Shown one piece after another: positions 4,044-22,871 of a stretch of DNA of 29,029 nucleotides. A program made the position numbers and the translations under genes. The stretch's first letter is position 1; each line of letters opens with the position of its first letter. The notes under the pieces are model-generated. The model made no database searches. It saw nothing but the letters and a program-made list of their open reading frames with translations, and was not told the DNA's origin. Source of the stretch: a virus; IMG/VR virus record IMGVR_UViG_3300027760_000061, positions 1-29,029 of that record; one strand, 5' to 3'.

Positions 4044-5351
4044 ATGGGCCTGTCTCCACGCCTTCTTCGCCCGCAAAACAGAAACGCCGTTCATCCCGAA
4101 GCGGCAGCGTGGGCCGCTCGCGTTGTTGCCAACGGCGGCACGGTTGGCACATCGCTGCCAGCGGTGTCTGCGTTCTGCCGTGCCATTGACTCGGCATCGC
4201 TACGCGACCGCTTCTATCGGCTTAACTTGTTTTGCGGCACAGGACTCAACGCCGCACTGGTGCCGCTCTATCTGACGCCAGACAAGACGGTCACAAACCT
4301 GTTCCAGTTTGGGACAGACCAGACCAACGCGGCGTGGCTTGCTGGCGGGAATGGCCTAGTCACCCGCACGGCAACCACTGAAGTCGGGCCGCTTGGATAC
4401 GGATACGCGACCAAACTCACAACGCCGTCAGCCCCGTTTGATGTTCGTCAGATGTACCAGCAGATGCCACTTGATGGGCGTCAGGTGACCGTGTCTGCGT
4501 GGATGAAGACCAACTCTGGCACTCGCCAAATCCAGTGGCTCACAGGGAACTCGTACTCCGATACCGTAACCGTCACAACAACGTGGCAGCGATTCACAAA
4601 GACATTCACGCTTCCGACTTCCACAGACGCTCGCACTGGATTTTCGACCGTCAGCGAACTCAGTGACGCCGCAGGGTTCATTTACGTTTGGGGAATGCAG
4701 TGTGAGTACGGCGCGGCTGCGACCTCGTACAGCCAGCCGAGATACGGCAACACCACCGACACCAACGTGGGCGGGCTGTTCGTATCTGCGAACTACAACG
4801 AGACAGGTGCGAGTGGCGGGCTGGCGGGCAACGGCAGCAATAAGTACCTCAACACTGGGTTCCCGACAAATACTCTTTCGGCCAGCGACCGTCACTTGGC
4901 GGCGTATCCGATCACATGGCCCAACGGAGGCTTTCAGTATTTCTTGGGATCGGAGTCTGCAGGCGGCATCGGCCAGCAGCAGTTTGCTCTCGGTCACTTC
5001 GACTACGCGGACAAGGGTGCATTTGCGTTTGGGCCAACGTCAGGAAGTTACCTCAACAACACAACTGCCATTTCTAGTGGCGGGATGTGGATGGGCGTCA
5101 ATACATCAGGAAGCGGAACTATCTACAGGAACGGCACCGCCAACGGGACGATGTCCCTCGCCGCCGCAACGCCAACGGCATCGGAGATATATGCGTTTGC
5201 TGTAAATCGGGCAGCAAGCGGTAACGCAGCAAACTACTTCAACGGCCGCATCGGCGGCTACTCCATCGGCCTGTCGATGACCGCACCGCAAGCCGCCGCC
5301 TACAACACCGCGATGCAAGCCTTCCAAGCAGCCATGACGAGGAACGTATGA
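4044..5351 (+). CDS. Lectin-like tail or receptor-binding protein with an inserted carbohydrate-binding-like module
   Basis: A 435-residue protein with three apparent parts. Residues 1-80 (HPEAAAWAARVVANGGTV, then FYRLNLFCGTGLNAALVPLY) form an N-terminal helical/beta section. Residues ~83-230 look like a CBM4/9-type jelly roll: an NLFQFG...NAAWL opening, YATKLTTPS, VTVSAWMKTNSGTR, and the closing signature VWGMQCEYGAAATSYSQP seen in many phage tail carbohydrate-binding modules. Residues ~231-435 (YGNTTDTNVGGLF through RIGGYSIGLSMTAPQAAAYN) resemble a concanavalin A/LamG-like sandwich. A role in binding cell-surface glycans is inferred. The gene starts two bases after the previous stop and ends in an ATGA overlap with the next. 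It lies unusually early, before the adaptor genes. Confidence 0.7.
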   Translation: MGLSPRLLRPQNRNAVHPEAAAWAARVVANGGTVGTSLPAVSAFCRAIDSASLRDRFYRLNLFCGTGLNAALVPLYLTPDKTVTNLFQFGTDQTNAAWLAGGNGLVTRTATTEVGPLGYGYATKLTTPSAPFDVRQMYQQMPLDGRQVTVSAWMKTNSGTRQIQWLTGNSYSDTVTVTTTWQRFTKTFTLPTSTDARTGFSTVSELSDAAGFIYVWGMQCEYGAAATSYSQPRYGNTTDTNVGGLFVSANYNETGASGGLAGNGSNKYLNTGFPTNTLSASDRHLAAYPITWPNGGFQYFLGSESAGGIGQQQFALGHFDYADKGAFAFGPTSGSYLNNTTAISSGGMWMGVNTSGSGTIYRNGTANGTMSLAAATPTASEIYAFAVNRAASGNAANYFNGRIGGYSIGLSMTAPQAAAYNTAMQAFQAAMTRNV

Positions 5352-5698: not shown

Positions 5699-6838
5699 AT
5701 GGCCTACCTCACTTATTTCGATCTTGTCGAAAACCTCATCGTCTCCTCCTACGGCGGGCCGCAGGACGCAGAGCAGCGAGACATCCGCACGGCCGTGCAG
5801 CGCGCCTATAGCGAAGTCACCACAGTCACCGAGTGGTCGCACTACTACCAGCACGGCCGGATCATCACCCAGCCCCAGTATCAGACCGGGACGGTGGCGT
5901 TCAATGCCACAACCAACCAACTCACTCTGTCTGGCGGAACTTGGCCCACATGGGCCGCGTCTGGATCGGTATCCATCGGCCGGGCGATTGCCAAGGTCGC
6001 CACGCGCGTGTCCCCAACAATCTTGGCGTTGGACACAACTCTGACGTTTGCCAGCACTCTCGCAGCCGGCCAGGCATACGTTCTCTACCAAACCGACTAC
6101 GCCCTGCCGGCTGACTTCCGGAACATGGACGAGCCGTCCAATGAGTTTAACTGGTGGTCCGGTCTGTATCTGAAGCCTGACGAAGCGATGAAGTTGGAGC
6201 GGGTCGGGAACAGGTCCGGAAGGCCATGGCACTGGACGGTCCTCAAGAACCCGAATGGGTCTGGGTACATCCTCAAGCTCGTTGGTTATCCGACATCGCA
6301 AGAGACGCTGGACTTCACCTACCGTCGCTATCCAAGGCAGATCAAGTACTCCGGGCATGAGCCGCGAGTTCGCACTGGGACAATCACCGTCTCTTCTTCT
6401 GTCGAAATAACTAGCGCCGACGCCAACTTCCCACCGGATTGCCCGGGGTCAATCATCCGCATTGGCACTGCATCGGAGTATCCAGGCTCCATAGAGTCAA
6501 TGACTCCTTACACAGAAGAGCATTTGATTGCATCCCGCCCAGGGGAGGATGTGATTTTTATTGCCCCTCCCGGCTCATCATTGGAGTCATCGTACAAATA
6601 CCTGATCACCGACCCCGCTGACGTTGCTCGCCACATGCAGACTGCACTTCACTCCTGCGCCTCCTACTGGCTGGATCGCATCCGTGGCGGCAAGGCCGAC
6701 CAGTCCTTCTCCACTTATCAGCGCGACCTCCGCCTTGCCCTAGAGCAAGACCAGCTCGCCCCGCTCTCTGGCAGGACCAGGGAAATCTGGCATGACGGTG
6801 GCTGGAGGAGTCCGCTTAAGGCTGACGAGGGCGCATGA
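5699..6838 (+). CDS. Adaptor-like (head-to-tail connector) virion protein
   Basis: A 379-residue protein directly before the tail nozzle genes. The N-terminal helices (YFDLVENLIVSS, then RDIRTAVQRAYSEVTTVTEW) and the following YYQHGRIIT segment resemble adaptor proteins that dock under the portal in podoviruses. Residues ~55-120 form a beta-rich insert (TGTVAFNATTNQLTLSGGTW). The C-terminal ~70 residues return to helix (ADVARHMQTALHSCASYWLDRI, then DLRLALEQDQLAPLSG). The role is inferred from gene order (adaptor, then nozzle) and this helix-beta-helix layout. A major capsid protein was considered and disfavoured, since the segments look like a connector. ATG at 5699 has no clear Shine-Dalgarno. 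It ends in ATGA with the next gene. Confidence 0.6.
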   Translation: MAYLTYFDLVENLIVSSYGGPQDAEQRDIRTAVQRAYSEVTTVTEWSHYYQHGRIITQPQYQTGTVAFNATTNQLTLSGGTWPTWAASGSVSIGRAIAKVATRVSPTILALDTTLTFASTLAAGQAYVLYQTDYALPADFRNMDEPSNEFNWWSGLYLKPDEAMKLERVGNRSGRPWHWTVLKNPNGSGYILKLVGYPTSQETLDFTYRRYPRQIKYSGHEPRVRTGTITVSSSVEITSADANFPPDCPGSIIRIGTASEYPGSIESMTPYTEEHLIASRPGEDVIFIAPPGSSLESSYKYLITDPADVARHMQTALHSCASYWLDRIRGGKADQSFSTYQRDLRLALEQDQLAPLSGRTREIWHDGGWRSPLKADEGA

Positions 6839-7104
6839 TCATCATCGAAAAGTGGGCCGGGCTTGCTACCAACGTCAGTCCGTACGCCATCCCTCCCGGC
6901 GCAGCAGTTACCCAAGTCAATCTCCAGTGCCTTAACCCCGGACAACTGACGGTTCGCAAGGGCATGACTTCGATGTCTTGGACCACTCACTCTGGCTCAA
7001 CGATCCCGATCACAACCCTCCAAAGGTTTCAGAGCGGGACGCTTGAGACGGTGGTGTACCAGAACGCTTCTGGTGTCCTGTTCTACGCCAAAGGGCCGAC
7101 ATGA
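6835..7104 (+). CDS. Tail nozzle N-terminal fragment (P22 gp10-like), separate ORF
   Basis: An 89-residue protein. Its beginning (KWAGLATNVSPYAIPPGAAV, then VNLQCLNPGQLTVRKGMTSM) matches the way podovirus tail-tube/nozzle proteins normally start: a 'G-x-x-T-N-x-S-P-y-x-l-P-p-G' opening followed by a strand describing the first propeller blade. It ends in an ATGA overlap with the 787-residue nozzle gene, which lacks this opening. The two ORFs therefore look like one ancestral protein divided into two translationally coupled polypeptides. No canonical slippery heptamer is visible at the junction, so separate translation is more likely than frameshifting. A sequencing or assembly indel cannot be excluded. 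Confidence 0.65.
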   Translation: MIIIEKWAGLATNVSPYAIPPGAAVTQVNLQCLNPGQLTVRKGMTSMSWTTHSGSTIPITTLQRFQSGTLETVVYQNASGVLFYAKGPT

Positions 7105-9464
7105 AGATCAACGGCGCCACGCTCACTGGATCGACCAAGGTTTCGCTGTTTAAGGGTCAGTACAAGTACATCTACGGCGTGAACGGTGGCGGGCGTGGGA
7201 TAAGGTGGTCGGGCGACGGGAATGCTGAGTACATCGGCATGCAGGCCCCGACCGCAGGGCTAACGATGTCCACTATCGCAGCGACGGCCAACATCGTCGC
7301 TGCCGTAGAAGTCATCGCGTCTGGCTCAGGATATTTCCAGCCGCCCACTGTAGCGTTCTCTGGAGGTGGCCTGGCCGCGGGCAATACGAATCACGCTCAA
7401 GGATTGGCGAAACTCAAGAACGGCGGAGTAGCCAATGTCATCGTCACCAACGCTGGCAGGAATTACACATCTCGCCCACAGATCGCACTCAGTGGTGGGC
7501 GAGGTAGCGGGGCCGAGGTGACCGTTGTTGTTGACGGCAGTATCGCTTCTGCCATACCTCTTACTCAAGGGTCTGGGTATACAAACGGCGCACTTGTCAG
7601 CTTCTCTGGCAACGGCATTGCTGAAGCCATTGGCGAAGTTGACATCACTGATGGCCGCGTAAGCGGCGTAAGGATTGTTAACCCAGGCCGCAGCGCCACG
7701 GGCGTAGCCACGGGCACAATCACTGCAGTAAATGGAGGCGCTGGCGCCACGCTGAAGTGCATCATGTCATATGCCGTCACCAACCTCACGGTCGTTGGCG
7801 GCTCCGGATTTGCCGGGACTGTTCCCGTGCAGTTCTCTTCTGTCAGCGGCTCTGGGGCTGCGGCGTATTGCATAGCAAACTCAGCTGGCGCGCCAGAAAA
7901 CCCAGTGATCACCTCTCGCGGCGCTTACTCGGTCATTCCTACAGCAAGCGTCCTGGGAACTGCCGCCAGGGCCGAAACGCTTATCCGCTCGCCTATGCGA
8001 GGATCGTACCGCTGCGGATACAGGTTCCTAGACAACACGCTTATTGGGGACGGCGGGCCTATTCCTTCTAGCCTCTCGGAACTTGTCACCGTTGAGGCCG
8101 GCGAGGGCGCCTCGGGTTTTACTTGGAACTGGTCCAATGCCGCCGCGGACTCACGGGCCGTGGCCGTGGAGCTGTGGCGCACATCAGCAAACCAGGCTGT
8201 TGTCCTTTATCGCATTGCGCTCCTAGAGAGGTCTGGCGGGCTGTTGCCGACCTCGTACACGGACACCATGGACGAGGCAACGCTGATCAGCCCAACTAGG
8301 TCTGGATACGGCCTGATGCCGATCACTCTCCCGTCAGGCCAGCTCAATGCGTATCGCTTTGAAGTGCCGCCCACGGACATGGAAGACGCCTGCTGGTTCC
8401 AAGACCGCGCCTGGTACGGGGCCAACACCAACGGCACGCGACCAAACACGCTGCTGTTCTCTGAGACAGATGAGGCAGAATCCGTTCCGCCCGTGAACGA
8501 GATTGTGATCCAGAACAACACCGGCTCCCAAGACCGGGTGGTGGCCTTGATTCCCTATGGCGCCATGATGCTCGTCGCCCAAGAGAAGCACATGTACCGC
8601 CTCACGTACGTGGCCCAGCCAGTCATTGACGCGGCCGTGACTCTGGCAGGATATCGCGGGCTTCTGAACAAGCGATGCTGGACCACCTTTGAAGGCGGGC
8701 TGTACTGCGTTGACTCGTTTGGCATGTACGCCTTCGACGGCTCAAGCATGGAGCCGCTATCTGTAGCGGTGGATGATTACTGGAGAGACAGTGTCATTGA
8801 CTTCTCCAAGTCAGCCAACTTCTTTGTCCAAGCCGACCCGGTTTCGCGGGTGATTCGTTTCCACTACTGCAAGTCCACGGACGGCACCACTCCCCCGAGG
8901 GCGCTGTGCTATTCGCTTGCGACAAAAACTTGGTGGGAGGAGACATATCCCCAAGGGGTCGGCGCCTCCACCGTCATCCGCATAAGCGGCAAGCAGTCCT
9001 TAGTCTCTGGCTCCGCCGATGGGAAGCTCCTCAAGGCCAACACGGGCCTTGTGGACACAAGCGGGAACACCACCGCAACCATCCCGTACCAACTGCGCAC
9101 TGGCCCGCTGGTGATCACGGACGAACCAACCCGTCAGATCGGTGTCCTGTACAAGCCCACCGCCACCACGGCCGACCTGACGCTCAAGGTTCACTACAAC
9201 AACTCATCCACGGCTAGATCGAATGCCGTTGACTCCGACCGCGGCGAAGGAGTTGTGGCTTCCCCGGCTGGCGTGGTGATTGACATGCGAACCGGACGGT
9301 CGGCGCTTGGCGATTCCAATGGCTACTCAACGGCCCGGTATTCCGGCAGGGCCAACGACCGCTCGTCGGGTGCAGACAGGCATTTAGCCGTCGCCCTGTC
9401 AGGCTCTCAGTCATCCTCCCCGATTGTGTTGCACGGCGTCACCATCGGTGGAGTGACTGCGTAA
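7101..9464 (+). CDS. Tail nozzle / DNA-stabilisation beta-propeller protein with GSGY repeat insert
   Basis: A 787-residue protein. Residues ~295-787 resemble podovirus tail nozzle proteins (P22 gp10/T7 gp12 type), which close the tail tip and retain DNA: SPMRGSYRCGYRFLDNTLIG, then FQDRAWYGAN..LLFSETDE, GAMMLVAQEKHMYRL, EGGLYCVDSFGMYAFDG and ALCYSLATKTWWEETYP are propeller-blade strands. Residues ~70-290 are a block of degenerate repeats of the form 'V-x-x-x-GSGY-x-x-x-P-x-V-x-F-S-GGG', about 40-60 residues each, known in phage structural proteins and probably forming extra surface beta domains. The N-terminus begins mid-propeller because the usual opening is in the preceding 89-residue ORF. 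It ends with a TAATG overlap. Confidence 0.78.
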   Translation: MKINGATLTGSTKVSLFKGQYKYIYGVNGGGRGIRWSGDGNAEYIGMQAPTAGLTMSTIAATANIVAAVEVIASGSGYFQPPTVAFSGGGLAAGNTNHAQGLAKLKNGGVANVIVTNAGRNYTSRPQIALSGGRGSGAEVTVVVDGSIASAIPLTQGSGYTNGALVSFSGNGIAEAIGEVDITDGRVSGVRIVNPGRSATGVATGTITAVNGGAGATLKCIMSYAVTNLTVVGGSGFAGTVPVQFSSVSGSGAAAYCIANSAGAPENPVITSRGAYSVIPTASVLGTAARAETLIRSPMRGSYRCGYRFLDNTLIGDGGPIPSSLSELVTVEAGEGASGFTWNWSNAAADSRAVAVELWRTSANQAVVLYRIALLERSGGLLPTSYTDTMDEATLISPTRSGYGLMPITLPSGQLNAYRFEVPPTDMEDACWFQDRAWYGANTNGTRPNTLLFSETDEAESVPPVNEIVIQNNTGSQDRVVALIPYGAMMLVAQEKHMYRLTYVAQPVIDAAVTLAGYRGLLNKRCWTTFEGGLYCVDSFGMYAFDGSSMEPLSVAVDDYWRDSVIDFSKSANFFVQADPVSRVIRFHYCKSTDGTTPPRALCYSLATKTWWEETYPQGVGASTVIRISGKQSLVSGSADGKLLKANTGLVDTSGNTTATIPYQLRTGPLVITDEPTRQIGVLYKPTATTADLTLKVHYNNSSTARSNAVDSDRGEGVVASPAGVVIDMRTGRSALGDSNGYSTARYSGRANDRSSGADRHLAVALSGSQSSSPIVLHGVTIGGVTA

Positions 9465-10489
9465 TGTACACACAGCAGAGCAATGCCTTAGCCGCTGCTC
9501 TCGCCCTCCCAGCAGGCCAGCAGCAGTCTCAGGCGCTGCTGCAAGTCTTCGCCAACTGCATCCAAGGCTTGCGCCAGAACGGCCCAGTGTCCATCAACAC
9601 TGGCGCGGGCAGCCAAGCACCTCCGGGGGGCGTGATCACTTCACCCCCAGGCGTAGGAAGCGTCACCAACAACTACTACGACGGCAACACCAACAACACA
9701 ACAAACAATCTCCAGAACTACCTAAACGGTGGCGATTACCGGACGATCAACAACTACCCGCCCAACGTCTGGAATGTCAACAACTACGGCGGTGACACCA
9801 ACAACAGCTACTTCACCACCAACAATGACAATACCAGCAATTATTATGGCGGTGACACGTTCTATGGCGACAACTACCTGACCACCAACAACTACGACAA
9901 CTCCCAAAACTTCAACATAAACAATCAGACTGACTACAACACCTACAACAACTCAACGAACAACGTCAACAACTCCATTCAGAACAACAACATCAGCAAC
10001 TGGTACAACAACCAGTACACAGACAACAGCTACAACGACTTCTCCACCACCCTTCAGACTACACAGAACAACTACAACCAGACCGTCAACAACTTTGAGG
10101 GTGACTCCTACTTTGAAAACACCGTCAACCAGGGCGATGTGATCAACCAGTCCACGGTCATCAACCAAGGGGATGTGATCCATCAGGGCGACACGTACCT
10201 GGACGAAAACAAGACGTTCATTACGAACGACAACCGCACCATAAACCTGATTAATTACATCACCAACACGGTGATAAACATCATCCAGGGCGGAGGCCAA
10301 GACGGTAAGGATGGCAAGGACGGCCTTCCCGCAAAGCCCCTCCCGCACACACATGCGTTCAAGGGCAAAAAAGCCAAGATTAAGGTGCCAAAATACAAGT
10401 TTAACGCGGAATCTTGCGCCATTGAGGAGGACGGCACCAAGGACATTGAATTCACGCCACAGGGCACCGTGGAGAAGAACGCCCTTTGA
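9464..10489 (+). CDS. Asn/Tyr/Thr-rich fibre-like protein with hexapeptide repeats and collagen-like motif
   Basis: A 341-residue protein; ATG overlaps the nozzle stop. Residues 1-40 are helical (NALAAALALPAGQQQSQALLQVFANCI), a likely virion anchor. Residues ~65-205 are dominated by Asn with Tyr, Thr, Asp and Ser (for example TNNYYDGNTNN and NYYGGDTFYGDNYL). Residues ~220-270 become a regular six-residue pattern (VNQGD, VINQST, VINQGD, VIHQGD) as expected of a beta-helix or triple beta-helix fibre. Then comes a short Gly-x-y stretch (GGQDGKDGKDG) and a basic tail with KGKKAKIKVPKYKF. A trimeric tail fibre or spike is inferred from the fold-like periodicity and the location after the nozzle; no known family was recognised. 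Confidence 0.7.
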   Translation: MYTQQSNALAAALALPAGQQQSQALLQVFANCIQGLRQNGPVSINTGAGSQAPPGGVITSPPGVGSVTNNYYDGNTNNTTNNLQNYLNGGDYRTINNYPPNVWNVNNYGGDTNNSYFTTNNDNTSNYYGGDTFYGDNYLTTNNYDNSQNFNINNQTDYNTYNNSTNNVNNSIQNNNISNWYNNQYTDNSYNDFSTTLQTTQNNYNQTVNNFEGDSYFENTVNQGDVINQSTVINQGDVIHQGDTYLDENKTFITNDNRTINLINYITNTVINIIQGGGQDGKDGKDGLPAKPLPHTHAFKGKKAKIKVPKYKFNAESCAIEEDGTKDIEFTPQGTVEKNAL

Positions 10490-10514: not shown

Positions 10515-12824
10515 ATGGCCTTTATCAAAGTCCCGAACTACACCTTCAGCGGCGATCCGGTGTCCCAAGCCGCGGCTGCCAAAGTCGCCTCGGATCACTT
10601 AAAGGCTTACGGCCAAGTTGACTCCGCCCAGGCTGCCGCCAATGGCCAAATTGGGGCTGCCCAAGCCGCGGCCCAGGGGACGCTGTACGGTCAGCCGGCC
10701 AACATCTACGGCAACTACGCCACATCTGGCGCTAACGCCTTTAACGCCTACAACCAAGGCATGAGCGGGATTGGCTCGTCGCTGGCCAATCTGTACGGCA
10801 ACTACGGCAACAACCTCCAGAACCTGTATTCCAATCAGACTTCTGCGATGGGCCAGACCGAGGCAGCGCGGCAGATTGCCGCCGCCAACATCGGCACGGC
10901 TGGCCTGAGTTCGATGGGCCAGATGATGAGCGGGGCGTTTGGTGCCCAGGCCCAGAATCAGTCTGCCGCCTACCGGGCCATGGCCGACATGCAGGCCGCG
11001 AACCAAGGAGCCATGAGTTCCTACGGGGCCTCCCAGAACAATGCCCTCGCCGGCCTTGGTGCTTCCGCAGCGTCCCTTGGTGGCGCTGGGGCAAACGCTT
11101 ACGGCCAGCTCGGGACCGGAACCTCCACCGCGAGGGCCAACGCGGCAAGCTCTCTTGGCACTGCGTACGGCAGCGTCTTGGGCGGGATTGCAAACTCGGC
11201 TGGCAATCTTGGCACTGGCTTGGCGACGGCTCGGGGCAACACGGCCGGGGCGCTCGGGTCGGCCTATGGCTCCGCGCTCAACAGCTACAACTCGTCCAAC
11301 GCTGCCCTTGGCGGAAGCATGGCCGGCGCTTACGGCAACATGGCCGGCGCGATGGGCAATGCGTACGGTCAGGCTGCCGGAAGTCTCGGCACCGCCGCAG
11401 GCAATTTCGGATCGGCCACCAACACCGCCCTCGGCAACATGTACGGCACACTGGGGACCGCCCAAGGGCAGTACGGGGCTGCATCGCAGACAGCGCGTGG
11501 CAACATGCTGTCTTCGCTGGCCAACACAAATCTCGGCGGATACAACACCGGCGCCAGCTATCAGGCAGACATGGCCAAACTTGGATTGGCCCGGGAGCTT
11601 GGGCTTGGGCAGATCGGAGTTGCTGGCAGCGCGTTTGGTGGTGGCGGCGGAAGCGGTGGCGTAAGCATGACGGCGGCTGGCGAGCCGCTCGGGTACGCAT
11701 CTGGCGGCTACTCGTCTGGTGGTGGTGGCGGAGGCTATGGGGGCGGCGGCACTGGTGGCGGATACTCGCCCAATCCTTCGCCGGCCTGGTATCAGAGTCC
11801 GCAATACTTGGCACCTTTCCCGAACCAGACGCCATACGCCGCAAGTCAGATGGGCGGCGCAGACCAGGCCGTCCTCAGCGGGCTTTATGGGACAGGTGCG
11901 GCGGGCGGTGGGGCGATTGGGAATAACTCCGCTTCGACCTACGGCCAGCTCGGCGCTCTCTCAAACCAGCTCTCCAACATCCCCGGCATGTTTAACTCGG
12001 GCATGCAGGGCATCGGGTCCGCTGGCCAGCAAGGGTATGCCAACCTCAACAGAGGATTAGCATCGGCCAACCGCCAGATTCCAGGCATGCTGAACACCTC
12101 CATGCAGGCGATGGACCGCGATGGGGCTAACGCCTTCGGGGCGCTGCGGAACACGGCCAGCCAAGCCGGCGCCATCCCCGGCATGTTGAACACCACCATG
12201 AGTGGCATCAACAACGACTTCTCTCGGTCGCAGTCAGGGATCGGATCGTCACTCAGTCAGGGCTATGACGCGATCAATCAGTCTCGCAACTCCATCAACT
12301 CGTCGCCCATCGCTAGTTACCTCATGCAGACCGGACAGGCCGGCAGGGATCAGCTCGGTAGTTCGATGGCTACGAACGACAACCTGTTGGGCAGTTGGGT
12401 AAACAGTGGCCTTGGCAACATGCGTGGCGCCTTGGCGAGTGGTTATGGCCAACTCAACAACGGCATGAACCAGTTCTACGCCAACATCCCACGCGACGGC
12501 GCGGAACTTCTGGGGTCGGCACTCAAGCAAGGCGCTGGCCAGATCGGCTCTATCGGATCGCAGATGGGGTCGGCGTATGGCTCGTTCAACAACTCCAACA
12601 ACGCAGGTCGCCAAGGCGCCATGCAGCAGGTAACTGACCTGTACAAGATGGCCAACGGCGGGTTCCAGCAGCCACAGCAACGTCCGATGCAATCGCAGGC
12701 CGAGATGATGGCCAAGGCCCGCGCCGACACCGCCGCTGCGACTGCCGCGTGGAAACAGGCCAACCCAGTGAGGCCGACAGGCAATGCCACGTTCGACCGA
12801 ATGAACCAGGCGTACTACCGCTAA
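10515..12824 (+). CDS. Large repeat protein with 32 hendecads, putative internal virion or ejection protein
   Basis: A 769-residue protein with TAGGAG at 10503-10508, six bases before ATG. After a 13-residue leader, residues 14-365 split without any gap into 11-residue units. Position 11 is usually Leu, Met or Ala, position 3 often Leu or Met, position 6 often Ala, and position 8 often Gly (for example GALGSAYGSAL and GSMAGAYGNMA). Residues ~375-420 are a Gly/Ser-rich linker. Residues ~485-590 hold three copies of an IPGM(L/F)N motif spaced 32-33 residues, three hendecads. The C-terminus is Gln/Met/Ala-rich. Charged residues are scarce. The regularity suggests a very long helix or helical bundle; location between fibre and internal-protein genes suggests an injected or tube-forming protein. 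The function is inference. Confidence 0.75.
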   Translation: MAFIKVPNYTFSGDPVSQAAAAKVASDHLKAYGQVDSAQAAANGQIGAAQAAAQGTLYGQPANIYGNYATSGANAFNAYNQGMSGIGSSLANLYGNYGNNLQNLYSNQTSAMGQTEAARQIAAANIGTAGLSSMGQMMSGAFGAQAQNQSAAYRAMADMQAANQGAMSSYGASQNNALAGLGASAASLGGAGANAYGQLGTGTSTARANAASSLGTAYGSVLGGIANSAGNLGTGLATARGNTAGALGSAYGSALNSYNSSNAALGGSMAGAYGNMAGAMGNAYGQAAGSLGTAAGNFGSATNTALGNMYGTLGTAQGQYGAASQTARGNMLSSLANTNLGGYNTGASYQADMAKLGLARELGLGQIGVAGSAFGGGGGSGGVSMTAAGEPLGYASGGYSSGGGGGGYGGGGTGGGYSPNPSPAWYQSPQYLAPFPNQTPYAASQMGGADQAVLSGLYGTGAAGGGAIGNNSASTYGQLGALSNQLSNIPGMFNSGMQGIGSAGQQGYANLNRGLASANRQIPGMLNTSMQAMDRDGANAFGALRNTASQAGAIPGMLNTTMSGINNDFSRSQSGIGSSLSQGYDAINQSRNSINSSPIASYLMQTGQAGRDQLGSSMATNDNLLGSWVNSGLGNMRGALASGYGQLNNGMNQFYANIPRDGAELLGSALKQGAGQIGSIGSQMGSAYGSFNNSNNAGRQGAMQQVTDLYKMANGGFQQPQQRPMQSQAEMMAKARADTAAATAAWKQANPVRPTGNATFDRMNQAYYR
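10554..11609 (+). repeat. Array of 32 consecutive 33-bp coding repeats (hendecads)
   Basis: This is the DNA span of residues 14-365 of the 769-residue protein. The repeats are diverged in DNA but keep strict 33-base phase with no insertion or deletion across 1056 bases. Later copies are the most alike (around 11148-11511), suggesting more recent expansion there. Confidence 0.8.
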
Positions 12825-13189
12825 TGCTCTCATACGACACTGGCATTCAAAACAAGCCGCCGGTCACCCAAGGCATGCAGCAGCAGGCTCTGGCCGGGCT
12901 GGCTGCGCAGGGTGGCGTACTTCAGTACCCCGGCTCGGCAGCGGATGTCTACAACGCCCGCGCCATGGCTGCGGGCTTGGACTACGAACGTGCCGCGGCA
13001 ACCACCAACAACGAGTACCTTGCCAACGCACAGAAGGCGCAGCAGTCCACAGCTCTCGCGGGACTGCAGCAGATGGCTACGGCCCAGCAGAACGCAAACA
13101 ACCTCGCCAACTCGCAGCAGTCGATGAAGCTGGACTATCTCGGCAAGTTGTCTGGCGGGCTTAACGGACTTCTCGGAAACATCTTCTGA
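12824..13189 (+). CDS. Small Gln/Ala/Asn-rich virion-like protein
   Basis: A 121-residue protein starting at ATG 12824, which overlaps the previous stop (TAATG); an earlier in-frame ATG at 12749 lies inside the repeat gene and is less likely. The central part is a helix rich in Ala, Gln and Asn (LANAQKAQQSTALAGLQQM, NANNLANSQQSM). The C-terminus ends LSGGLNGLLGNIF, a Gly/Leu motif echoed by the next gene (NALGGLLGSIG), so the two may be distant paralogues. Composition resembles the hendecad protein upstream, consistent with membership in the same internal or tail assembly. No family was recognised. Confidence 0.7.
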   Translation: MLSYDTGIQNKPPVTQGMQQQALAGLAAQGGVLQYPGSAADVYNARAMAAGLDYERAAATTNNEYLANAQKAQQSTALAGLQQMATAQQNANNLANSQQSMKLDYLGKLSGGLNGLLGNIF

Positions 13190-13659
13190 TGAACTACGCC
13201 ACAACAACTTCGACGTTCGCCCCGCAGCAGGTCCCGAACACGCAGGGCATGTTCAACACGGAACTGGCTAATGCCCAGGCAGCGGCCGATCCGCGATTCA
13301 ACATGAAGGCCATGGACCGCAATGGCGTGTCCCGTGGCAAGGGGACGATGGCTGTGGCGGGCATTCAAGCGGCCCAGAACCTCGCTGGCGGCATTGCTAA
13401 AGCGTATCAGGTTCCCGCTCAGGATGCGTCCACCAACGCCAACAACACGCTCCAGTACCAGACCAACCAAGAGAACTTCGGTCAGGGCATCTCCAACATC
13501 GCACAGCAGAACGACTACGCCAACGCGATGGCCGCTCTGCAGCGCAATCAGAACGTACTGAACTTCCAGGGTAACGCTCTCGGCGGCTTGCTGGGGAGCA
13601 TTGGTAACACAAGCAATCTCGGTTCCTTCGGAAACTACAATGGCACGTATAGATTTTGA
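13189..13659 (+). CDS. Small Gln/Asn/Ala-rich virion-like protein, relative of the previous gene
   Basis: A 156-residue protein with a TGATG start overlap. The layout mirrors the previous protein: an unstructured N-terminus (YATTTSTFAPQQVPNTQG), a long Gln/Asn/Ala helix (NNTLQYQTNQENF, then IAQQNDYANAMAALQRNQNV), and a Gly/Leu C-terminal patch (NALGGLLGSIG). A short stretch at residues 50-75 (GTMAVAGIQAAQNLAGGIAKAY) is hydrophobic and amphipathic and could touch membrane. T7-type internal virion proteins can have similar composition, but assignment is only by context. Its last 20 bases overlap the next gene. Confidence 0.7.
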   Translation: MNYATTTSTFAPQQVPNTQGMFNTELANAQAAADPRFNMKAMDRNGVSRGKGTMAVAGIQAAQNLAGGIAKAYQVPAQDASTNANNTLQYQTNQENFGQGISNIAQQNDYANAMAALQRNQNVLNFQGNALGGLLGSIGNTSNLGSFGNYNGTYRF

Positions 13660-13912
13660 TCTAGACGATCTCACCAACACCGCACTGAAGCGGCTGGTCA
13701 AGCAACTCCTTGTCGCTGATGACGATGAGGAGAAGAAGATTGTCAAGAACCTTGGCAAGAAAACTGGCGCCAAGGCAGAGAAGAACGATCTAGCCGACCT
13801 CCATGAGGAGAAGCACGGCAAGCCCAACACGCCGATGGTCACTGACGATGACCTCCCGTACGACGGCGATGACGAACTGCCTGACGTTCCGAAGAAGAAG
13901 GGGAAGAAGTAA
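13640..13912 (+). CDS. Small highly charged acidic/lysine-rich protein
   Basis: A 90-residue protein beginning MARIDFDLDDLTNTALKRL. ATG at 13640 is preferred over an in-frame TTG at 13601 because the residues before it are non-coding-like and overlap the previous gene further. The first 35 residues form an amphipathic helix; residues 45-90 alternate acidic and lysine clusters (DDDLPYDGDDELPDV, ending KKKGKK) and look disordered. It lies in the run of internal-protein genes and overlaps the next gene as TAATG. Such charged proteins can be assembly cofactors or DNA-associated virion components; no specific role can be assigned. Confidence 0.65.
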   Translation: MARIDFDLDDLTNTALKRLVKQLLVADDDEEKKIVKNLGKKTGAKAEKNDLADLHEEKHGKPNTPMVTDDDLPYDGDDELPDVPKKKGKK

Positions 13913-14985
13913 TGGGTAATCCAAGCAAGTGGGGCGAAACCGTTGATGCAATTCGCAGGCTTGTCGGCCGTCCAGCGGCTGGCGTCCCGCTTGACGTTGC
14001 GGACGATGTGGCCCGCGCAGCAACTCGCCACTCGCAAGAGATGCACGGAAGCAACGCGCTCTGGGATGACATGCGGGCATCTCAGGAGAGGTATGGAACG
14101 TCATACTTGTTCAGCCCGCAGCGTGGCGGAACAAGTGTGGACGGCACAAAACTGTTTGACGATGTGATCAACGCCAACATGCCCGAAGGCCCGACCCTTT
14201 CGCGCCCCGCAGCCGCTGAAGACTTTGAACTCGGCTCTCCGCTCTGGCATCAGCTGGACAAGGGCTATCGGGCCAACGACAACCTTCGCCGTGGCCGCAC
14301 GCCCAACCTGCGGAATCAAGACCCGCAGCTTGCCCGCATTGCTGGGCAGGAACTCAACTCCACCAACTCCGCCGCCAGAGCCACTCGGGCCGCTGATGCC
14401 CAGCGTGCCCAGGGCATGCGTGAAGGACTCGGTGAACTCGGTGCCGCTGCCGCAACTGTCGGAATTGGTGCGGGCCTGAGTTCGATGTACCCGTCTGGCG
14501 AGACGCCTACCCAAGGCGACATGACCGACACCTCGGGCACGGAAGACCTTGCGGCAGAATCCCGGCCGGCGCCAAGCGTTGAGCCTGACATGCCGCCCGA
14601 TGAGCAGGAGTTTGCCGACAGGTTCAAGCGTCAGTACCTCGCCCGCGAGGCGAAGCGAAACGCCCCTGTGGACTACTCATTCCAAGCCCGCGAGTTGATG
14701 GGCAAGCTCAACGCCATGCGCAAGGCCGCTGGCGGCGAGGTGCCAGAAGCCAAGCAGATGATGGCCGAGATTGACCGGCTGCTTGGGATGGCGAATCAGC
14801 AGAAGAATGCGCCGGGCTACAAGCCCGCAATGCCTACCGACTACCACGGCGAGGCACAGCGTCTTCTCCAAGACTTGAACGCTCGTCGCATGGAAGCCGG
14901 CGGTGAAGTGGCCGATACGCAGAAGGTCATGGCGGAGGTTCGTCGCCTCCAGGCCATGGGCGATCAGATGAGAAACGCAAGGTAA
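13912..14985 (+). CDS. Putative internal virion protein with duplicated C-terminal helical domain
   Basis: A 357-residue protein of unknown family. The N-terminal ~110 residues contain short mixed segments (WGETVDAIRRLVGRPAAGV, YGTSYLFSPQRGG). A hydrophobic stretch near residues 178-194 (LGELGAAAATVGIGAGL) could insert into a membrane. The last ~105 residues are a tandem duplication with a 56-residue period, starting at residues 252 and 308; both copies share P-x-D-Y, LNA-x-R, AGGEV, MAE and RL. Position before the 532- and 1210-residue genes suits a set of DNA-ejection proteins (analogous, not shown homologous, to T7 gp14-16). The ribosome start overlaps the previous stop. Confidence 0.7.
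   Translation: MGNPSKWGETVDAIRRLVGRPAAGVPLDVADDVARAATRHSQEMHGSNALWDDMRASQERYGTSYLFSPQRGGTSVDGTKLFDDVINANMPEGPTLSRPAAAEDFELGSPLWHQLDKGYRANDNLRRGRTPNLRNQDPQLARIAGQELNSTNSAARATRAADAQRAQGMREGLGELGAAAATVGIGAGLSSMYPSGETPTQGDMTDTSGTEDLAAESRPAPSVEPDMPPDEQEFADRFKRQYLAREAKRNAPVDYSFQARELMGKLNAMRKAAGGEVPEAKQMMAEIDRLLGMANQQKNAPGYKPAMPTDYHGEAQRLLQDLNARRMEAGGEVADTQKVMAEVRRLQAMGDQMRNAR
14665..14982 (+). repeat. Tandem duplicated helical domain (56-residue period)
   Basis: Two copies, residues 252-307 and 308-357, align without gaps over about 50 positions, with roughly 20-25 identities by eye. Conserved landmarks are P-x-D-Y, LNA, AGGEV, MAE, RL and NA. The second copy ends at the C-terminus. Confidence 0.75.
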
Positions 14986-14994
14986 GGAGCATTC

Positions 14995-16593
14995 ATGGCC
15001 GTCAAGCATCGCCGCCTCCCCAATGGGGCGTATGAGACTGTTGATAACGTGGACGCCAACCTTGAGGCCGCTGCCACGCCTATCGCTGTTGAGCCTACGG
15101 CGGGAGCCGGGCCTTTGCCGAGCGATGTTAGGCAGGCTCAAATCGACCGACTTGTGGGCCTTGGCGATGACCCTCGCACTGCCGCCATGGTTGTAGACCG
15201 CATGCGCGAAATCCATGGCGAAGAGATGTCGCCAGAGCTGTTTGATCACTACAACAACCCAAGGGACAACGCAGCCCTGCGTCAACGAATTGCTGAGAGC
15301 AAAGCCGCCAACGCGCGGATGGCTGCTTTTGAAACCAACTACAACGCCGAGACTGGCCACCCAGAGTACGGCTACGACGAGGCCGGGAATGCGGCCAGGC
15401 TGGGGAGGGTTGACATCCGCAACCCAGGCCAAGGTGAGCGACTTGGCGCAGGGAGCATCTATGGCAGCCGCCAAGCGATTCGCCGCAATCACTGGCGTGG
15501 TGCCAACACCAGCGAACTTGACTACCAAAACTATCCAAGTGACTACGCTGAGTCCGAGGACGATGGCCGTCCTTTCGGCGGCACCGAATCCGTGGCGCCG
15601 GACTTTGCCGACTCCACGGTTCCTGGCCCTCGCACGTTGGACGGAAATTCTCCCGCGCCGTCTCGCGGCCTGACTGCAGAGGAGGCCGAGGCTTACAACA
15701 CTCGCAAGCCCGGGGGGCTGTCGCAGCGAGATCGGGACATGCAGGCTCGCGGATACGTTCCGGTTGTGACTCCGGACGGTGTTTCATACCAGCCTGCCTA
15801 TGTGGCCAATAGAAACAAGTATGCGATTCCCGGTGGACCCGGTCGGCCAGGACCTCGCACCGGACTTGCCAAGCCATACTTGGACGGCAAGTACGAAATG
15901 GACATTGCCGTTGGCCCCGATGGCGTTCCTCGTTCCGTTTACGCACCGACGCCTGAGTTCCGCAAACAGCAAGAAGACAATCAAAAGCGCCGCCGGCAAG
16001 AGCTGTCCGCAGAACGCGACAAGCGCCGAGCCAACTGGCAGGCTACAGCGATGCTTGCCGGCGGGTCGCAGAACCTCAACTCAGGCAACCGCTGGATTGC
16101 TCAATCTCTTGTTAACATGAGCGACGAGGACCGAGCAAACGCCATGAAGTACATGCTCCCGGGTGGACAGCTGCACGCTCAGGTGGATGCCGCAAACGCC
16201 GAGGCGGCGGCAGGAATGGCGCAGCGGGCAATGACGGCATTCTTGACGAACAACCCCGGCGCCACTCCCCTGCAGCAGGCCGCACTTGAGCAGCAGAAGG
16301 CCAAGGACCGGCAAGACATGCTGACTTGGGCCGAGGGCCACATTGGCGACAACTATGCCTACGACTCTGGCTGGGTGTCTTCTGCATTCGGGTTTGATGA
16401 GTTCACGCCTGCCGAGCAGGAGGCCGCGGTAAATGACATCATGCAGAGATACCCAGGCACCACGCGAGAGCAGGCGCGGGAGATAGTTGACAGCATTGCG
16501 GCTCGCAAGGGTGGTCGCCAAGCAGCAGCAGTTCCGCCTGCTGGCGCCACGGCTCCCGGTGCCGGCGGTGCTGACGGTGGGTTCACGGGATAA
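14995..16593 (+). CDS. Putative internal virion protein (unknown family)
   Basis: A 532-residue protein with a strong ribosome site (AAGGAG at 14984-14989, five bases before ATG). The N-terminus starts AVKHRRLPNGAYETVDNVD. Residues 40-110 are helical (IDRLVGLGDDPRTAAMVVDRM). The middle (110-300) is Gly/Pro/Asn-rich and probably disordered. Residues ~320-350 form a very basic helix (KQQEDNQKRRRQELSAERDK), followed by Ala/Gln-rich helices (AEAAAGMAQRAMTAFLTNNP) and a C-terminal Ala/Gly/Pro tail. The composition matches neighbours considered to be internal virion proteins. No catalytic motif, such as a lytic transglycosylase signature, was found. The TAA is directly followed by the next ATG. Confidence 0.72.
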   Translation: MAVKHRRLPNGAYETVDNVDANLEAAATPIAVEPTAGAGPLPSDVRQAQIDRLVGLGDDPRTAAMVVDRMREIHGEEMSPELFDHYNNPRDNAALRQRIAESKAANARMAAFETNYNAETGHPEYGYDEAGNAARLGRVDIRNPGQGERLGAGSIYGSRQAIRRNHWRGANTSELDYQNYPSDYAESEDDGRPFGGTESVAPDFADSTVPGPRTLDGNSPAPSRGLTAEEAEAYNTRKPGGLSQRDRDMQARGYVPVVTPDGVSYQPAYVANRNKYAIPGGPGRPGPRTGLAKPYLDGKYEMDIAVGPDGVPRSVYAPTPEFRKQQEDNQKRRRQELSAERDKRRANWQATAMLAGGSQNLNSGNRWIAQSLVNMSDEDRANAMKYMLPGGQLHAQVDAANAEAAAGMAQRAMTAFLTNNPGATPLQQAALEQQKAKDRQDMLTWAEGHIGDNYAYDSGWVSSAFGFDEFTPAEQEAAVNDIMQRYPGTTREQAREIVDSIAARKGGRQAAAVPPAGATAPGAGGADGGFTG

Positions 16594-19500
16594 ATGGCAC
16601 GCTCCCCGCTCTTCGATCTCTATGATCCAGATGGACTGCTGACCGGGCAGTCCGACTACGACATTGACCCCCTGACTGGGCAGAAGCGTCGGCGGCAGAT
16701 CGCTGACCTGATGCCAAAGGAGGAGCAGAGCAGCCTCCTCAATTCACTGGCCCAGATTGGTTCCTCTGGACTGGCGGCGGCTGGCTATCTGTTTGACACT
16801 CCAGGCGCCTTGATACGCGGCACGCTTGCAGGCGATCCCCTCAGTGCGTTTGGCACATCTGAGGATCGCGTTACTGGGCGAGAGCTTCTTCGCCAGTACG
16901 GAATGGTCGGAGACGAGGATACCTGGGGAAACTTCGGTGGCGGGCTTGCTGCCGAAGTGCTTCTTGATCCGCTCACTTACGGCTCGTTTGGACTTAGCAC
17001 TCTCTTTGGTCGCGGCGCCAAGACGCTTGCCGGCAAGGCCACGGAAGCTGCGGGCATGCTTCGCAACGTGGCCCTTGATGCAGCCGACACTCCTGGCGTG
17101 ACTGGCGTTCGCAACTACATGCGGAACACCACGCCGCGGGAACAACTGCTCACCATTGCTGACCCCGCGGTGCGTGCCGACACCGAACAGCGATTGATGC
17201 AGCAGCTTGACAGGTTTGGGGTTGGCCCCGATGGGCTGGACCAGGCTATGGGTGCGTTCGATGACGTTCGCATCCCGGGCACCAACATCGGCTTCTCATA
17301 CAACCTCGGCCCGGTCGGTGATGCGGTCGCCAATGCCGCAGATAGGTTTGGGCACTTCTCCCGGAATGCCCCAATCATCGGTCACGCCACTCGCTGGGGA
17401 GCGGCAGCGTTTGATAAGTCGGCCGGCGAGTACTGGAACCGCGACCTTGAGTTGACCAACCTGGTCCAGGATGCCAACCGCCGGGCCTATCGCAACGCCG
17501 ATGACCTGGCATACGCTGACCGACTGCGGCAAACCAGGCTTCAGCGCGAGGCGCTCAACGCAGAGGCTCCGGAGTTCTTTCCTGCTTCGGCCGGGTCGCT
17601 TGCTGGCCAGGCGATACCCGATGACTTGCGGACGTTCGACAACGCCCGGCTTCGCCAATCCATGGCCGACTGGGTTGAAGGCGGAGGCGGAACCCCGACC
17701 GGGCATTTCGGCCCCATGCTCCCGAACGGGGCCTACTATTCCGGCGCTCGCGGATCGGGCGACGAGATGGCCGACTGGGTCATGGAGAACGTCCCAGAGT
17801 TCCGAAACGTCCGGGACGAGTTTGCCACCCTTGGTCGCAACGCTAATGTTGCTGCCAATGATCTTGGACTTCCTGTCACGCAATGGGCGAGTCGCCAAGG
17901 AACAGACTGGTTCCCGCGTCAGCTTCACTTCTGGCAGCAGGACCGCGCTCCTGTGCGACCGGGTGCGGCGCAGGTCCGCGAGAAGCCTTGGTCCCGGGCC
18001 GAGCGAATCCTTGGTACGCAAGACAACTTCGGCCGTAGACGGCAGGCGTACACCGACCTCCCTGGTGGCATGCGGACCTTCCGGGAGCTGACGGGAAACC
18101 TCAATCCCCGCTTGGACTCGGCGGCGCTTCAGCAGCAGCTCATTGGCGCCAGCGACGATCAGGTCCGCGGAATCCTGGACAACGCCTTTGGGCAGATCGG
18201 CATCCAGGACCCGTACCAGCCGTGGATGGACGATGTCCTAAACGACCCAGCGTACATCAACGGCACGCCTGCGATTCAGCAGCAGATGCTGGATCAGGCC
18301 GACCAAGCCATCAACGGCATGTACACGCAGCTTGCCGACTTGCTCCGGGCCGCAGACACGCAGTTCGCCACCAACCGGCGAGGCATCTTTGACAGCGACC
18401 CATGGAACAACATGGCTCGCTATTCCGCGGGCCAGGCCACCAACCGAGCCAACGCCGAAGAGCTGATCCGCCAGATGGGCGAATTGGCAGAACCCATCCA
18501 AGCTAATCAGGTTGTCGGCGGCACAAGCATCCCGCTGACGCAGGCTGCCGAGCGATTCGGATTTGATCCGGCTTCTTTCCGGCAGATGTGGAACGATAGG
18601 TTTGGGGCAGACCCGACCAACCTGTCAATCAACGAGCGATACTCAGACGCACTTCGCACGCTGGCCCCGAAGACCCAGCTTGCCATGCCCGAGAGGGGCT
18701 TGCTTGGTGCGGTCGATCAGTTCACCAACATGTTTAAGGTCGGTGCCCTCGCCGCCCCGTCCTTCCACACTCGCAATGCCTATAGCGGTGCGATCAATGC
18801 CGCAACGCACGGCGCGTTCAATCTGTGGGACATGATGGCCGCAAACCGGGCGAGCGCTGGCGACTACGGCCCGCTCGCCAGGCGACTGCGAAACGCCCCC
18901 GGATTTGAGAACCTCACTGACGAAGAGCGGGTCGCAAGATACCTGGACCTGACTGGAGCCACTCAGGTCACCGGCAGCAATGCACTGGATGACGTTGCTG
19001 GAATGCCAGAGCAGGCGATGAAGGGCATGTACCTTGGCTCCGACCCGACATCGGTTGCCGCCCAAGTCGCCAACGCAGCCATGCCAAGGGGCCGTGGCTG
19101 GCGGCAATATCTCAGCGACATGTTCTCAATGCGTGGCGTTGGGTTCACGCAGAACCCGATGCGCGAGAACACTAATCCGCTGCTTGTCCTCAACGATGCT
19201 GTGGGCCAGCGGGTGGAGGACTCGCTGCGAGGCGGCATGTTCCTCAACCAAATTAGGAAGGGAGTGGACCCGCGGCGGGCCGCGGATGTGTCGTTCCTCT
19301 CAAACGTGGACTACCGGCCCCAAGCGTTTACGGGCTTTGAGAAGGGATTAAAACGGCTAATCCCGTTCTACAGTTTTCAGAAGGGCATCATCCCGAGTAT
19401 CGCGACCAACGTCGTTGAGCGACCGGGCGGATTGCAGAACCAGCTCATCCGTGCCGTCAACCGCGGATCAGAGCCGTCGCAAGACAACTTCGTCCCTGAG

Positions 19501-20226
19501 CATCTACGGCAGTCTGCGGCAATCCCGCTGCCCGCCGACCTGCCAGGACTCCTTGGTGGGTCTGGCAACCCAGAACTCAAGCGTTATCTCAACAACATCG
19601 ACCTGCCATGGGAGAGCCTGTTCCAGACTTACACGCAAGGGGTGGGCGCGGATGCGTCTTCAACTCTTGCTGACACCATCCGCAAGACTGGCTCCAACAT
19701 CCTTGGGCAGACCAATCCACTTCTCAAAGCGCCATTGGAGTACATCACCAACCGTCAGCTGTACAGCGGCCGGCAGATGTCCGACTTGTACTCGGTGCTT
19801 GAGCAGGACCTTGGCCCGATAGGCAGACCACTGGAACAGCTCGTCACAAACTTTGTCCCGTTTGGTGCCCGCGGCCTCGGCCTGTATCGCCAGGCGACCG
19901 ATGATCGAATGACAAGCGGACAGGCCCTGCAGAAGGCGGCGTTCAATCTCCTCGCTGGAGCCAAGCTCACCGACGTTGACTCCGACCGAGCCAAGAGACT
20001 GGCGGCGAGAGACATGCTTAACAGCATCCTGGAGACAACGCCAGGGGTCAGGACGTTTGAGAACATTGCCGTCCCCGAAGATGTTCTGATGAACATGCCG
20101 AAGGAACAGCAGGACATGTACCTCCTCTACAAGATCATCCAGTCCGAGGCAGCCAAGCGTGCCCGCGAGAAGAAGAAGCAGCAACTCGTCATGGACCCGA
20201 TGCAGATGCTAGGGATCAACGGCTAG
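16594..20226 (+). CDS. Giant internal virion / large polyvalent-type protein (1210 aa)
   Basis: The largest gene in the window. Residues ~45-75 (LLNSLAQIGSSGLAAAGYLFDTP) and ~105-140 (GNFGGGLAAEVLLDPLTYG) match the 'gene-context' signature common in phage internal proteins and large polyvalent proteins: a Gly/Ala hydrophobic patch followed by L-x-D-P-x-T-Y. Late in the protein (residues ~880-960) VDYRPQAFTGFEKGLKRLIP and YSFQKGIIPSIATNVVERPG resemble the LPD38-type C-terminal module (a 'P-F-x-x-f-x-k-x-i-P' motif). The very C-terminus is basic and helical (RAREKKKQQL). A role in DNA ejection is inferred. No polymerase, peptidase or transglycosylase motif was recognised. It starts immediately after the previous TAA and its end overlaps the converging integrase gene by 18 bases. 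Confidence 0.75.
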   Translation: MARSPLFDLYDPDGLLTGQSDYDIDPLTGQKRRRQIADLMPKEEQSSLLNSLAQIGSSGLAAAGYLFDTPGALIRGTLAGDPLSAFGTSEDRVTGRELLRQYGMVGDEDTWGNFGGGLAAEVLLDPLTYGSFGLSTLFGRGAKTLAGKATEAAGMLRNVALDAADTPGVTGVRNYMRNTTPREQLLTIADPAVRADTEQRLMQQLDRFGVGPDGLDQAMGAFDDVRIPGTNIGFSYNLGPVGDAVANAADRFGHFSRNAPIIGHATRWGAAAFDKSAGEYWNRDLELTNLVQDANRRAYRNADDLAYADRLRQTRLQREALNAEAPEFFPASAGSLAGQAIPDDLRTFDNARLRQSMADWVEGGGGTPTGHFGPMLPNGAYYSGARGSGDEMADWVMENVPEFRNVRDEFATLGRNANVAANDLGLPVTQWASRQGTDWFPRQLHFWQQDRAPVRPGAAQVREKPWSRAERILGTQDNFGRRRQAYTDLPGGMRTFRELTGNLNPRLDSAALQQQLIGASDDQVRGILDNAFGQIGIQDPYQPWMDDVLNDPAYINGTPAIQQQMLDQADQAINGMYTQLADLLRAADTQFATNRRGIFDSDPWNNMARYSAGQATNRANAEELIRQMGELAEPIQANQVVGGTSIPLTQAAERFGFDPASFRQMWNDRFGADPTNLSINERYSDALRTLAPKTQLAMPERGLLGAVDQFTNMFKVGALAAPSFHTRNAYSGAINAATHGAFNLWDMMAANRASAGDYGPLARRLRNAPGFENLTDEERVARYLDLTGATQVTGSNALDDVAGMPEQAMKGMYLGSDPTSVAAQVANAAMPRGRGWRQYLSDMFSMRGVGFTQNPMRENTNPLLVLNDAVGQRVEDSLRGGMFLNQIRKGVDPRRAADVSFLSNVDYRPQAFTGFEKGLKRLIPFYSFQKGIIPSIATNVVERPGGLQNQLIRAVNRGSEPSQDNFVPEHLRQSAAIPLPADLPGLLGGSGNPELKRYLNNIDLPWESLFQTYTQGVGADASSTLADTIRKTGSNILGQTNPLLKAPLEYITNRQLYSGRQMSDLYSVLEQDLGPIGRPLEQLVTNFVPFGARGLGLYRQATDDRMTSGQALQKAAFNLLAGAKLTDVDSDRAKRLAARDMLNSILETTPGVRTFENIAVPEDVLMNMPKEQQDMYLLYKIIQSEAAKRAREKKKQQLVMDPMQMLGING

Positions 20227-21345: not shown

Positions 21346-21370
21346 GCCCCACGGATGGGGCTTTCATTTT
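21346..21370 (+). terminator. Terminator-like hairpin 14 bases before the exonuclease start
   Basis: GCCCCA-CGGA-TGGGGC (21346-21361) forms a six-base-pair GC-rich stem with a four-base loop, followed by TTTCATTTT. It lies after the 71-residue ORF and just before the ribosome site (CTGGAGGT, about 21371-21378) of the exonuclease gene. With no room for a promoter between it and that gene, it would act as an attenuator rather than a simple end. A similar stem with the same CGGA loop occurs at 27155-27168. Confidence 0.55.
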
Positions 21371-21384
21371 CTGGAGGTGTACGG

Positions 21385-22236: not shown

Positions 22237-22871
22237 ATTACGACAACAACATCCTCGGGCCGAGTTGTTCGCCCGAGACATCGGAGTTGACCAAGGCTCT
22301 TGCCAAGGCCCAGGCCGAGTATCCCATCGTTGCCTATGACAGTGCGAACCCGCACTTCAAAAGCAAGTTTGCTTCATATGCACAGTGCTGCGACTCGCTC
22401 CGCGGGCCGCTCACCAAGAACGGGCTGAGTCTCCCTGACTTCCGACCCGGCCTTGTTGGTGGTCAGTGGCTCGTCGTTGGAACCCTGCGTCATTCGTCAG
22501 GCCAGTGGATCAGCGGTGCCGCCCCTTTGTTCATGGGAAAGACCGACATGCAGTCCTTTGGGGCGGCGATGACCTACGCCAAGCGGACGCTACTGATGGC
22601 TCTGTGCGGCGGGTTCAGTGGCGAGGCTGACGATGACGGCAACAGCCTTGGTGAGCAGCAGCCGCAGAAGAAGTCAGAGCCGAAGGTGGACGCCAAGAGC
22701 CTTGCCTACCAGCAGGGTGCGATCAAGGCGATCAACGAGGCCGAGAGTAAGGATCACGCGAAGAAGCATCTAGACATGGTGCGTCTCCGTGCGAAGGAGA
22801 AGGCCGTCCCTGCGGAAGTGTTCCACAGGGTTGAGGCCGAATTCAAGAAGGTCTGGGAGGTTCAAGCATGA
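22233..22871 (+). CDS. erf: ERF-family single-strand annealing protein
   Basis: A 212-residue protein with the family signature: SELTKALAKAQAEYPIVAYD, NPHFKSKFASYAQ, GLSLPDF, VGTLRHSSGQWISG, DMQSFGAAMTYAKRT and LCGGFSGEADDDGN. ERF proteins (P22 Erf type) anneal complementary single strands during phage recombination. The ~75 C-terminal residues are Lys/Glu-rich (AKKHLDMVRLRAKEKAVPAE) and probably regulatory or protein-binding. It is translationally coupled to the exonuclease upstream (ATGA) and SSB downstream (ATGA), a classic exonuclease-annealase-SSB order. The usual family length is about 200 residues, so it looks intact. Confidence 0.93.
   Translation: MNYDNNILGPSCSPETSELTKALAKAQAEYPIVAYDSANPHFKSKFASYAQCCDSLRGPLTKNGLSLPDFRPGLVGGQWLVVGTLRHSSGQWISGAAPLFMGKTDMQSFGAAMTYAKRTLLMALCGGFSGEADDDGNSLGEQQPQKKSEPKVDAKSLAYQQGAIKAINEAESKDHAKKHLDMVRLRAKEKAVPAEVFHRVEAEFKKVWEVQA

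Follow-up and report, generated by a model that had tools for sequence, protein, structure and literature searches.

A conserved family of almost uncharged helical proteins from uncultivated podovirus-like phages whose helical segments differ in length preferentially by whole turns

Amphipathic helices built from 11-residue repeats occur in apolipophorin III and the apolipoproteins, which are charged cellular lipid carriers. Among phage proteins, the coiled-coil domain of phiX174 H combines three hendecads with heptads and forms a decameric tube, the lumen of which is lined mostly by Asn, Gln and Arg (PMC7354561). The tape measure protein (TMP) of TP901-1 contains 25 repeats of 11 residues and 4 of 18 residues, and tolerates changes in its length (PMC5099701). 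The T7 proteins gp14, gp15 and gp16 and the P22 proteins gp7, gp20 and gp16 are helical, are encoded after the tail genes and are known to be ejected. Homologues of gp14 are only 181-240 aa long, with several predicted transmembrane helices (PMC8954989).

The protein studied here is encoded in a virus record of 29,029 bases, hereafter the window (IMGVR_UViG_3300027760_000061); the same species is also present in a 59.6-kb IMG/VR contig. Its ORF (10515-12824, + strand, as are the parts of the protein, the 379-aa and nozzle-like genes and the genes at 12824-20226 described below) has 769 codons and specifies a 769-aa helical protein rich in Ala, Gly, Asn and Ser, of which a sequence-only reading had delineated just the N-terminal portion. 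Residues 1-132 (10515-10910) carry a conserved N-terminal motif (YTFSGDPVSQAAAAK) and the anchor QPAN, and show an 11-residue rhythm in registers that differ from that of the main array. A rigid conserved core, AARQ...SxNxAL, spans residues ~117-186 (10863-11072), and a phase-locked hendecad array of about 20 units spans residues 133-352 (10911-11570). The linker at residues 362-448 (11598-11858) contains 34% Gly and a motif related to FSASGPGGxIASGSY of the relatives. The second helical half, residues 449-714 (11859-12656), displays a strong hydrophobic periodicity at 3.6 residues and bears the conserved GMNQFYA motif. A Gly content of 18% is uncommon in free-standing helices, and no transmembrane-grade hydrophobic segment was found in the protein (maximum Kyte-Doolittle mean over 19 residues, 0.98). 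No support was found for an antisense ORF of 401 aa (10599-11804), which seems simply to mirror the codon composition.

Residues 14-365 had been described as 32 uninterrupted hendecads. Identity autocorrelation over this span gave z values of 6.3, 5.7 and 8.2 at lags 11, 22 and 33 relative to 500 shuffles; these were the top three of lags 1-60, the strongest being the 33-residue superperiod. The eleven-residue periodicity is thus borne out, together with the proposed position preferences (Ala at position 6 in 18/32 units, Gly at position 8 in 13/32, and Leu, Met or Ala at position 11 in 17/32) and the near absence of charge (16 of 352 residues). The uninterrupted array stood for only about 20 units. 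When the register was followed along the protein with a leave-out 11-position profile, a single register was found over approximately residues 133-352, weakly from residue 111. Residues 1-66 best fitted one position off this main register and residues 67-132 seven positions off, and a profile trained on residues 190-365 preferred another phase in residues 14-189; these phase shifts rule out a single 32-unit register. The Fourier peak of hydrophobicity at 11, suggested as a check, did not rise above shuffles: the signal sits in residue identity and in the helical moment at 11/3 (3.667) residues per turn. No tandem array was detected at the DNA level across the repeat region, indicating that the 11-residue units are old. 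The dN/dS values of 0.10-0.13 in residues 133-352 reveal strong purifying selection, and the amino-acid divergence of this array is below that of the C-terminal half.

The residues are distributed on two distinct faces. At 11/3 residues per turn, Leu, Ile, Val, Met and Phe of residues 111-352 cluster on one side of the helix (R 0.63, 47 degrees), a clustering reached by none of 500 shuffles and which vanishes at 3.6 residues per turn. Tyr shares this face, Asn/Gln (221 degrees) and Ser/Thr (263 degrees) are located opposite, and Gly lies between (162 degrees). Hydrophobic and Asn/Gln faces are likewise opposed in two homologues, L144 and L097. AlphaFold2, run on the monomer with 24 homologues, gave helices at residues 15-103, 108-199, 204-287 and 291-336, coil at 362-448 and further helices up to residue 714, with low to moderate confidence (mean pLDDT 58.5, pTM 0.30). 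The model predicts helix and not beta for the array, and continuous alpha-helices split by the Gly-rich linker. The model of one minimal homologue (326 aa) has two long helices and additional helical segments, with a beta hairpin formed by the conserved FSxxG...IASG motif (pLDDT 62.7, pTM about 0.3). Foldseek searches with the models yielded no match at E <= 0.001.

Contigs encoding homologues were gathered by searching with the portal, the product of a 379-aa gene and a nozzle-like protein. At least 61 complete distinct homologues of 171-887 aa were obtained, the four shortest (171-264 aa, alignment A4) being assigned mainly by position, with marginal or absent core-profile scores. They belong to uncultivated podovirus-like phages in which the gene is found close downstream of the nozzle-like gene, a synteny kept in dozens of contigs. 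The lag-11 score is positive in most homologues, and in many of them also that at lag 7, 18, 29 or 36; lags 7, 11, 18, 29 and 36 are all alpha-helical spacings. Short core blocks are held at constant distances: AARQ and SRNxAL are 56 aa apart in 19 of the 25 homologues measured, and 92 aa (36 more) in one clade, while HxxSRxxP and GMxQFY are separated by 32 aa in 19/19. The segment ahead of the core varies from 42 to 239 aa. No match was found for the target in Pfam and PHROG, or by tblastn against 50,697 phage records, and no cultured relatives were found of the target, the adaptor-like, portal, 156-aa or 1210-aa proteins. The nozzle-like query gave just short matches to cultured phages, with at most 22% coverage in the listed records, which we read as a shared beta repeat. 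The family is real, conserved and undescribed, and has a clean helical signature. The earlier view that no named family carries such an array is correct for Pfam and PHROGs; as a kind, the family has precedents in the phiX174 H tube and the siphophage TMPs. One contig with the same module was binned as a Pirellulaceae MAG, with the target and nozzle frames broken; the binning either hints weakly at the host range or is an artefact.

Of the new observations, the most informative concerns the lengths of insertions and deletions. Indel events were collected where gap-free flanks of 24 aa had at least 45% identity, which gave 29 clustered events outside the Gly/Pro-rich parts, a number obtained by simple clustering so that some events are possibly not fully independent. 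Scanning periods from 2.5 to 12.5 residues, the best period was 3.63 (R 0.61), which equals the alpha-helical pitch, and the V-test gave z = 4.65 at 3.636 for these 29 helical-region events. With stricter flank identity the V-test z was 4.19 at 0.50, 2.94 at 0.55 and 2.67 at 0.60. In contrast, 56 indels of the nozzle protein from the same phages gave z = 0.06, and the Gly/Pro-rich indels of the target itself z = 0.42. Random deletions simulated in the target homologues resulted in z = 0.32 +/- 0.97, with a maximum of 3.61 in 5000 draws, and they were recovered exactly, which eliminates aligner bias as the source of the quantisation. Multiples of 11 do not account for the indel lengths (mean cos 0.02); whole turns of 7, 11, 18, 22, 29 and 36 residues fit instead. 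In the window's clade, setting aside one indel near the C-terminus, every indel of at least 10 residues in the predicted helical parts measures 22 residues, and these fall at two sites. At the site around residue 290 (11385), the relatives L004-L006 are longer by exactly 22 residues, or two hendecads, and the other exact 22-residue site is in the second helical half. Anchor-to-anchor distances in the deep family gave p ~0.04 at 3.636, which was not the best over all periods, and by themselves are only suggestive of whole-turn spacing. These data show that the helical segments of relatives differ in length preferentially by whole turns, while the short core blocks keep their spacing. Since the indels are whole alpha-helical turns, it is the helical face, and not the number of hendecads, that is conserved.

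We then considered the genes around the target. In many contigs the terminase gene is followed by the portal gene and variable fibre genes, and these by the 379-aa gene and the nozzle-like gene. A gene of ~340 aa stands between the latter and the target, and genes of ~120 aa and ~156 aa, then large ones, come after the target. The portal assignment is based on phrog_156. Between the portal and the 379-aa gene lies a hypervariable fibre cassette (4044-5351), where the CBM/lectin-like (LALWLDAS) genes vary from one relative to another. The conserved 379-aa gene (5699-6838) has the position of an adaptor-type tail protein, and from this position may encode the adaptor; it has no profile match. 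The nozzle-like tail protein (7101-9464) contains inserted beta repeats and is weakly identified as a nozzle by PDB profile matches to 9nwi_Y (E 0.0027) and, in the same region, to the VP1 nozzle gp16 (E 0.58), with a phrog_3287 match in 6/6 homologues. Portal and adaptor-like profiles had no match in the PDB, and no notable PDB or Pfam match was found for the portal, the 379-aa gene or the downstream proteins. The sequence-only reading had advised looking for homologues beside nozzle and LPD38-type genes: a nozzle-like gene does lie nearby, and a search of the large neighbouring proteins for an LPD38-type Pfam domain gave none.

In most relatives the target adjoins the gene for the 341-aa protein (9464-10489), which is rich in Asn, Thr and Tyr, has lag-6 and lag-46 repeats (z 6.2 and 5.2) and a collagen-like GQDGKDGKDG stretch, and is possibly a spike or fibre; the motif ALGNCNQ...HRG, which includes a conserved Cys, is common to the N-termini of its relatives. 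Downstream of the target are a 121-aa protein rich in Ala, Gln and Asn (12824-13189) and a 156-aa protein rich in Ala, Asn and Gln with the motif DPRFNMK...DRxGxSRG (13189-13659), for which a family match was sought and none found. Both genes accompany the target in dozens of contigs, and their products are candidate partners of it. Three large conserved proteins of 357, 532 and 1210 aa follow (13912-20226) and are possible further internal virion proteins. Farther along the window, 21355-22236 encodes an Exonuclease VIII-like/DUF3799 PDDEXK protein, followed by ORFs resembling a recombination module; the ORF at 22868-23209 looks by eye like a single-strand-binding protein. Two overlapping ORFs in different frames (23289-24835) resemble the N- and C-terminal parts of a single helicase (phrog_16; Helicase_C in the second), possibly a frameshift or a split gene. 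In the 117,778-base IMG/VR contig 3300049595_001870, about 56 kb separate two nozzle genes that differ from each other; the contig perhaps joins two genomes of ~60 kb or holds them in tandem.

Like phiX174 H, the target is a phage protein with alpha-helical hendecads and an amide-rich face (PMC7354561), its Asn/Gln stripe lying opposite the hydrophobic stripe at 3.667. The differences are these: phiX174 is a tailless ssDNA microvirus, its H hendecads carry Lys and Glu, those of the target are far more numerous and variable, and the tube is known for H whereas it is conjectured for the target. H did not appear at E <= 1 in profile searches of PDB sequences with the target. As in T7 and P22, the gene is located close downstream of nozzle-like and tail genes in the virion module; ejection, known for the T7 and P22 proteins, we infer for the target solely from synteny. 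None of T7 gp14, gp15 and gp16 and P22 gp7, gp20 and gp16 has the 11-residue rhythm, and hhalign of the target alignments A3 and A9 against all seven proteins of the T7/P22 ejection-protein comparison gave probabilities of at most 0.5%. The family also differs from the gp14 homologues in its size range, and the window protein in having no transmembrane helix. Membership in the H or the T7/P22 ejection families is thus not borne out at the sequence level.

We consider it about an even bet that the target is an internal, probably ejected, virion protein of a podovirus-like phage whose length-variable amphipathic rods form part of a DNA-delivery conduit, which the gene order suggests it may line or span. 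The helices would lie packed alongside one another, as a rod, bundle or tube, with the hydrophobic stripes buried between neighbours and the Asn/Gln/Ser/Thr stripes facing the lumen or the solvent. The protein would be packaged with the DNA, leave the virion ahead of it and extend the short tail across the envelope, the tube acting like that of phiX174 H. Turns added or removed would tune the rod length to the host envelope or the internal core while leaving the interaction face unrotated, and whole-turn length change is indeed what a rod or tube with one face to keep aligned should show. Points against this reading are the missing profile similarity to the T7 and P22 ejection proteins, the lack of a transmembrane-grade segment and of a fold match at E <= 0.001, the low to moderate confidence of the monomer models, and the 18% Gly.

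The same synteny and helical evidence would equally apply if the protein were a rod of the internal core or of scaffold type, stacked on the portal or giving the packaged genome its shape, without being a conduit itself, and variable lengths could suit differing head or core sizes. This is possible, if rather doubtful: scaffold-like and capsid-like genes, recognised by position only, are found elsewhere, upstream of the terminase, and the hydrophobic and amide faces suit a packed tube at least equally well. An all-helical protein of variable length with 11- and 18-residue lags also recalls the TMP repeats of siphophages (PMC5099701), and the rod could determine how long an extended tail, or a structure associated with the tail, becomes. 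Here the upstream nozzle-like gene argues for a short tail, no tape-measure profile of PHROG or Pfam matches the target, and some homologues have merely 171-192 aa; TP901-1 is moreover long-tailed, and its TMP has Trp/Phe-marked repeats and strongly hydrophobic segments that the target lacks. A tape-measure function is therefore unlikely.

That the amphipathic hendecads bind membranes or lipid surfaces, in the manner of apolipoproteins, perilipins or LEA proteins, is quite improbable. The best profile match of this type, to apolipophorin III, is at chance level (E 0.03); no significant similarity to apolipoprotein, LEA or synuclein 11-mer proteins and no Pfam match were found, and the virus-encoded helices, almost uncharged, are devoid of the charges typical of the class, so that the synuclein- or apolipoprotein-type lipid binding suggested earlier is not sustained. 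The quantised indels further argue for fixed packing partners. The Ala/Gly/Asn composition and the low pLDDT of some parts might evoke a largely unfolded low-complexity sequence, its rhythm being a relic of repeat duplication. We hold this to be very improbable since the array is among the best-conserved parts (dN/dS ~0.1), has no DNA-level tandem array, and its indels keep the helical phase, unlike those of the nozzle or the linker.

Returning to the conduit, a more specific proposal, which we advance only tentatively, is that these proteins are an undescribed podophage DNA-conduit family, a dsDNA-phage analogue of the phiX174 H tube in which uncharged hendecad helices enclose an amide-lined lumen and the channel, an elastic rod, evolves in length by whole turns to fit the host envelope. 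Beyond T7 and a few relatives, the structural means by which phages with short tails bridge the envelope are an open question. In this family one rod with fixed core blocks occurs naturally in many lengths (171-887 aa), so that the relation of rod length to a dimension of the host envelope or core becomes directly testable. The sequence by itself provides evidence that face-preserving length change is under selection, and the indel-phase test is a general means, independent of any structure, of showing that a repetitive sequence functions as a helix.
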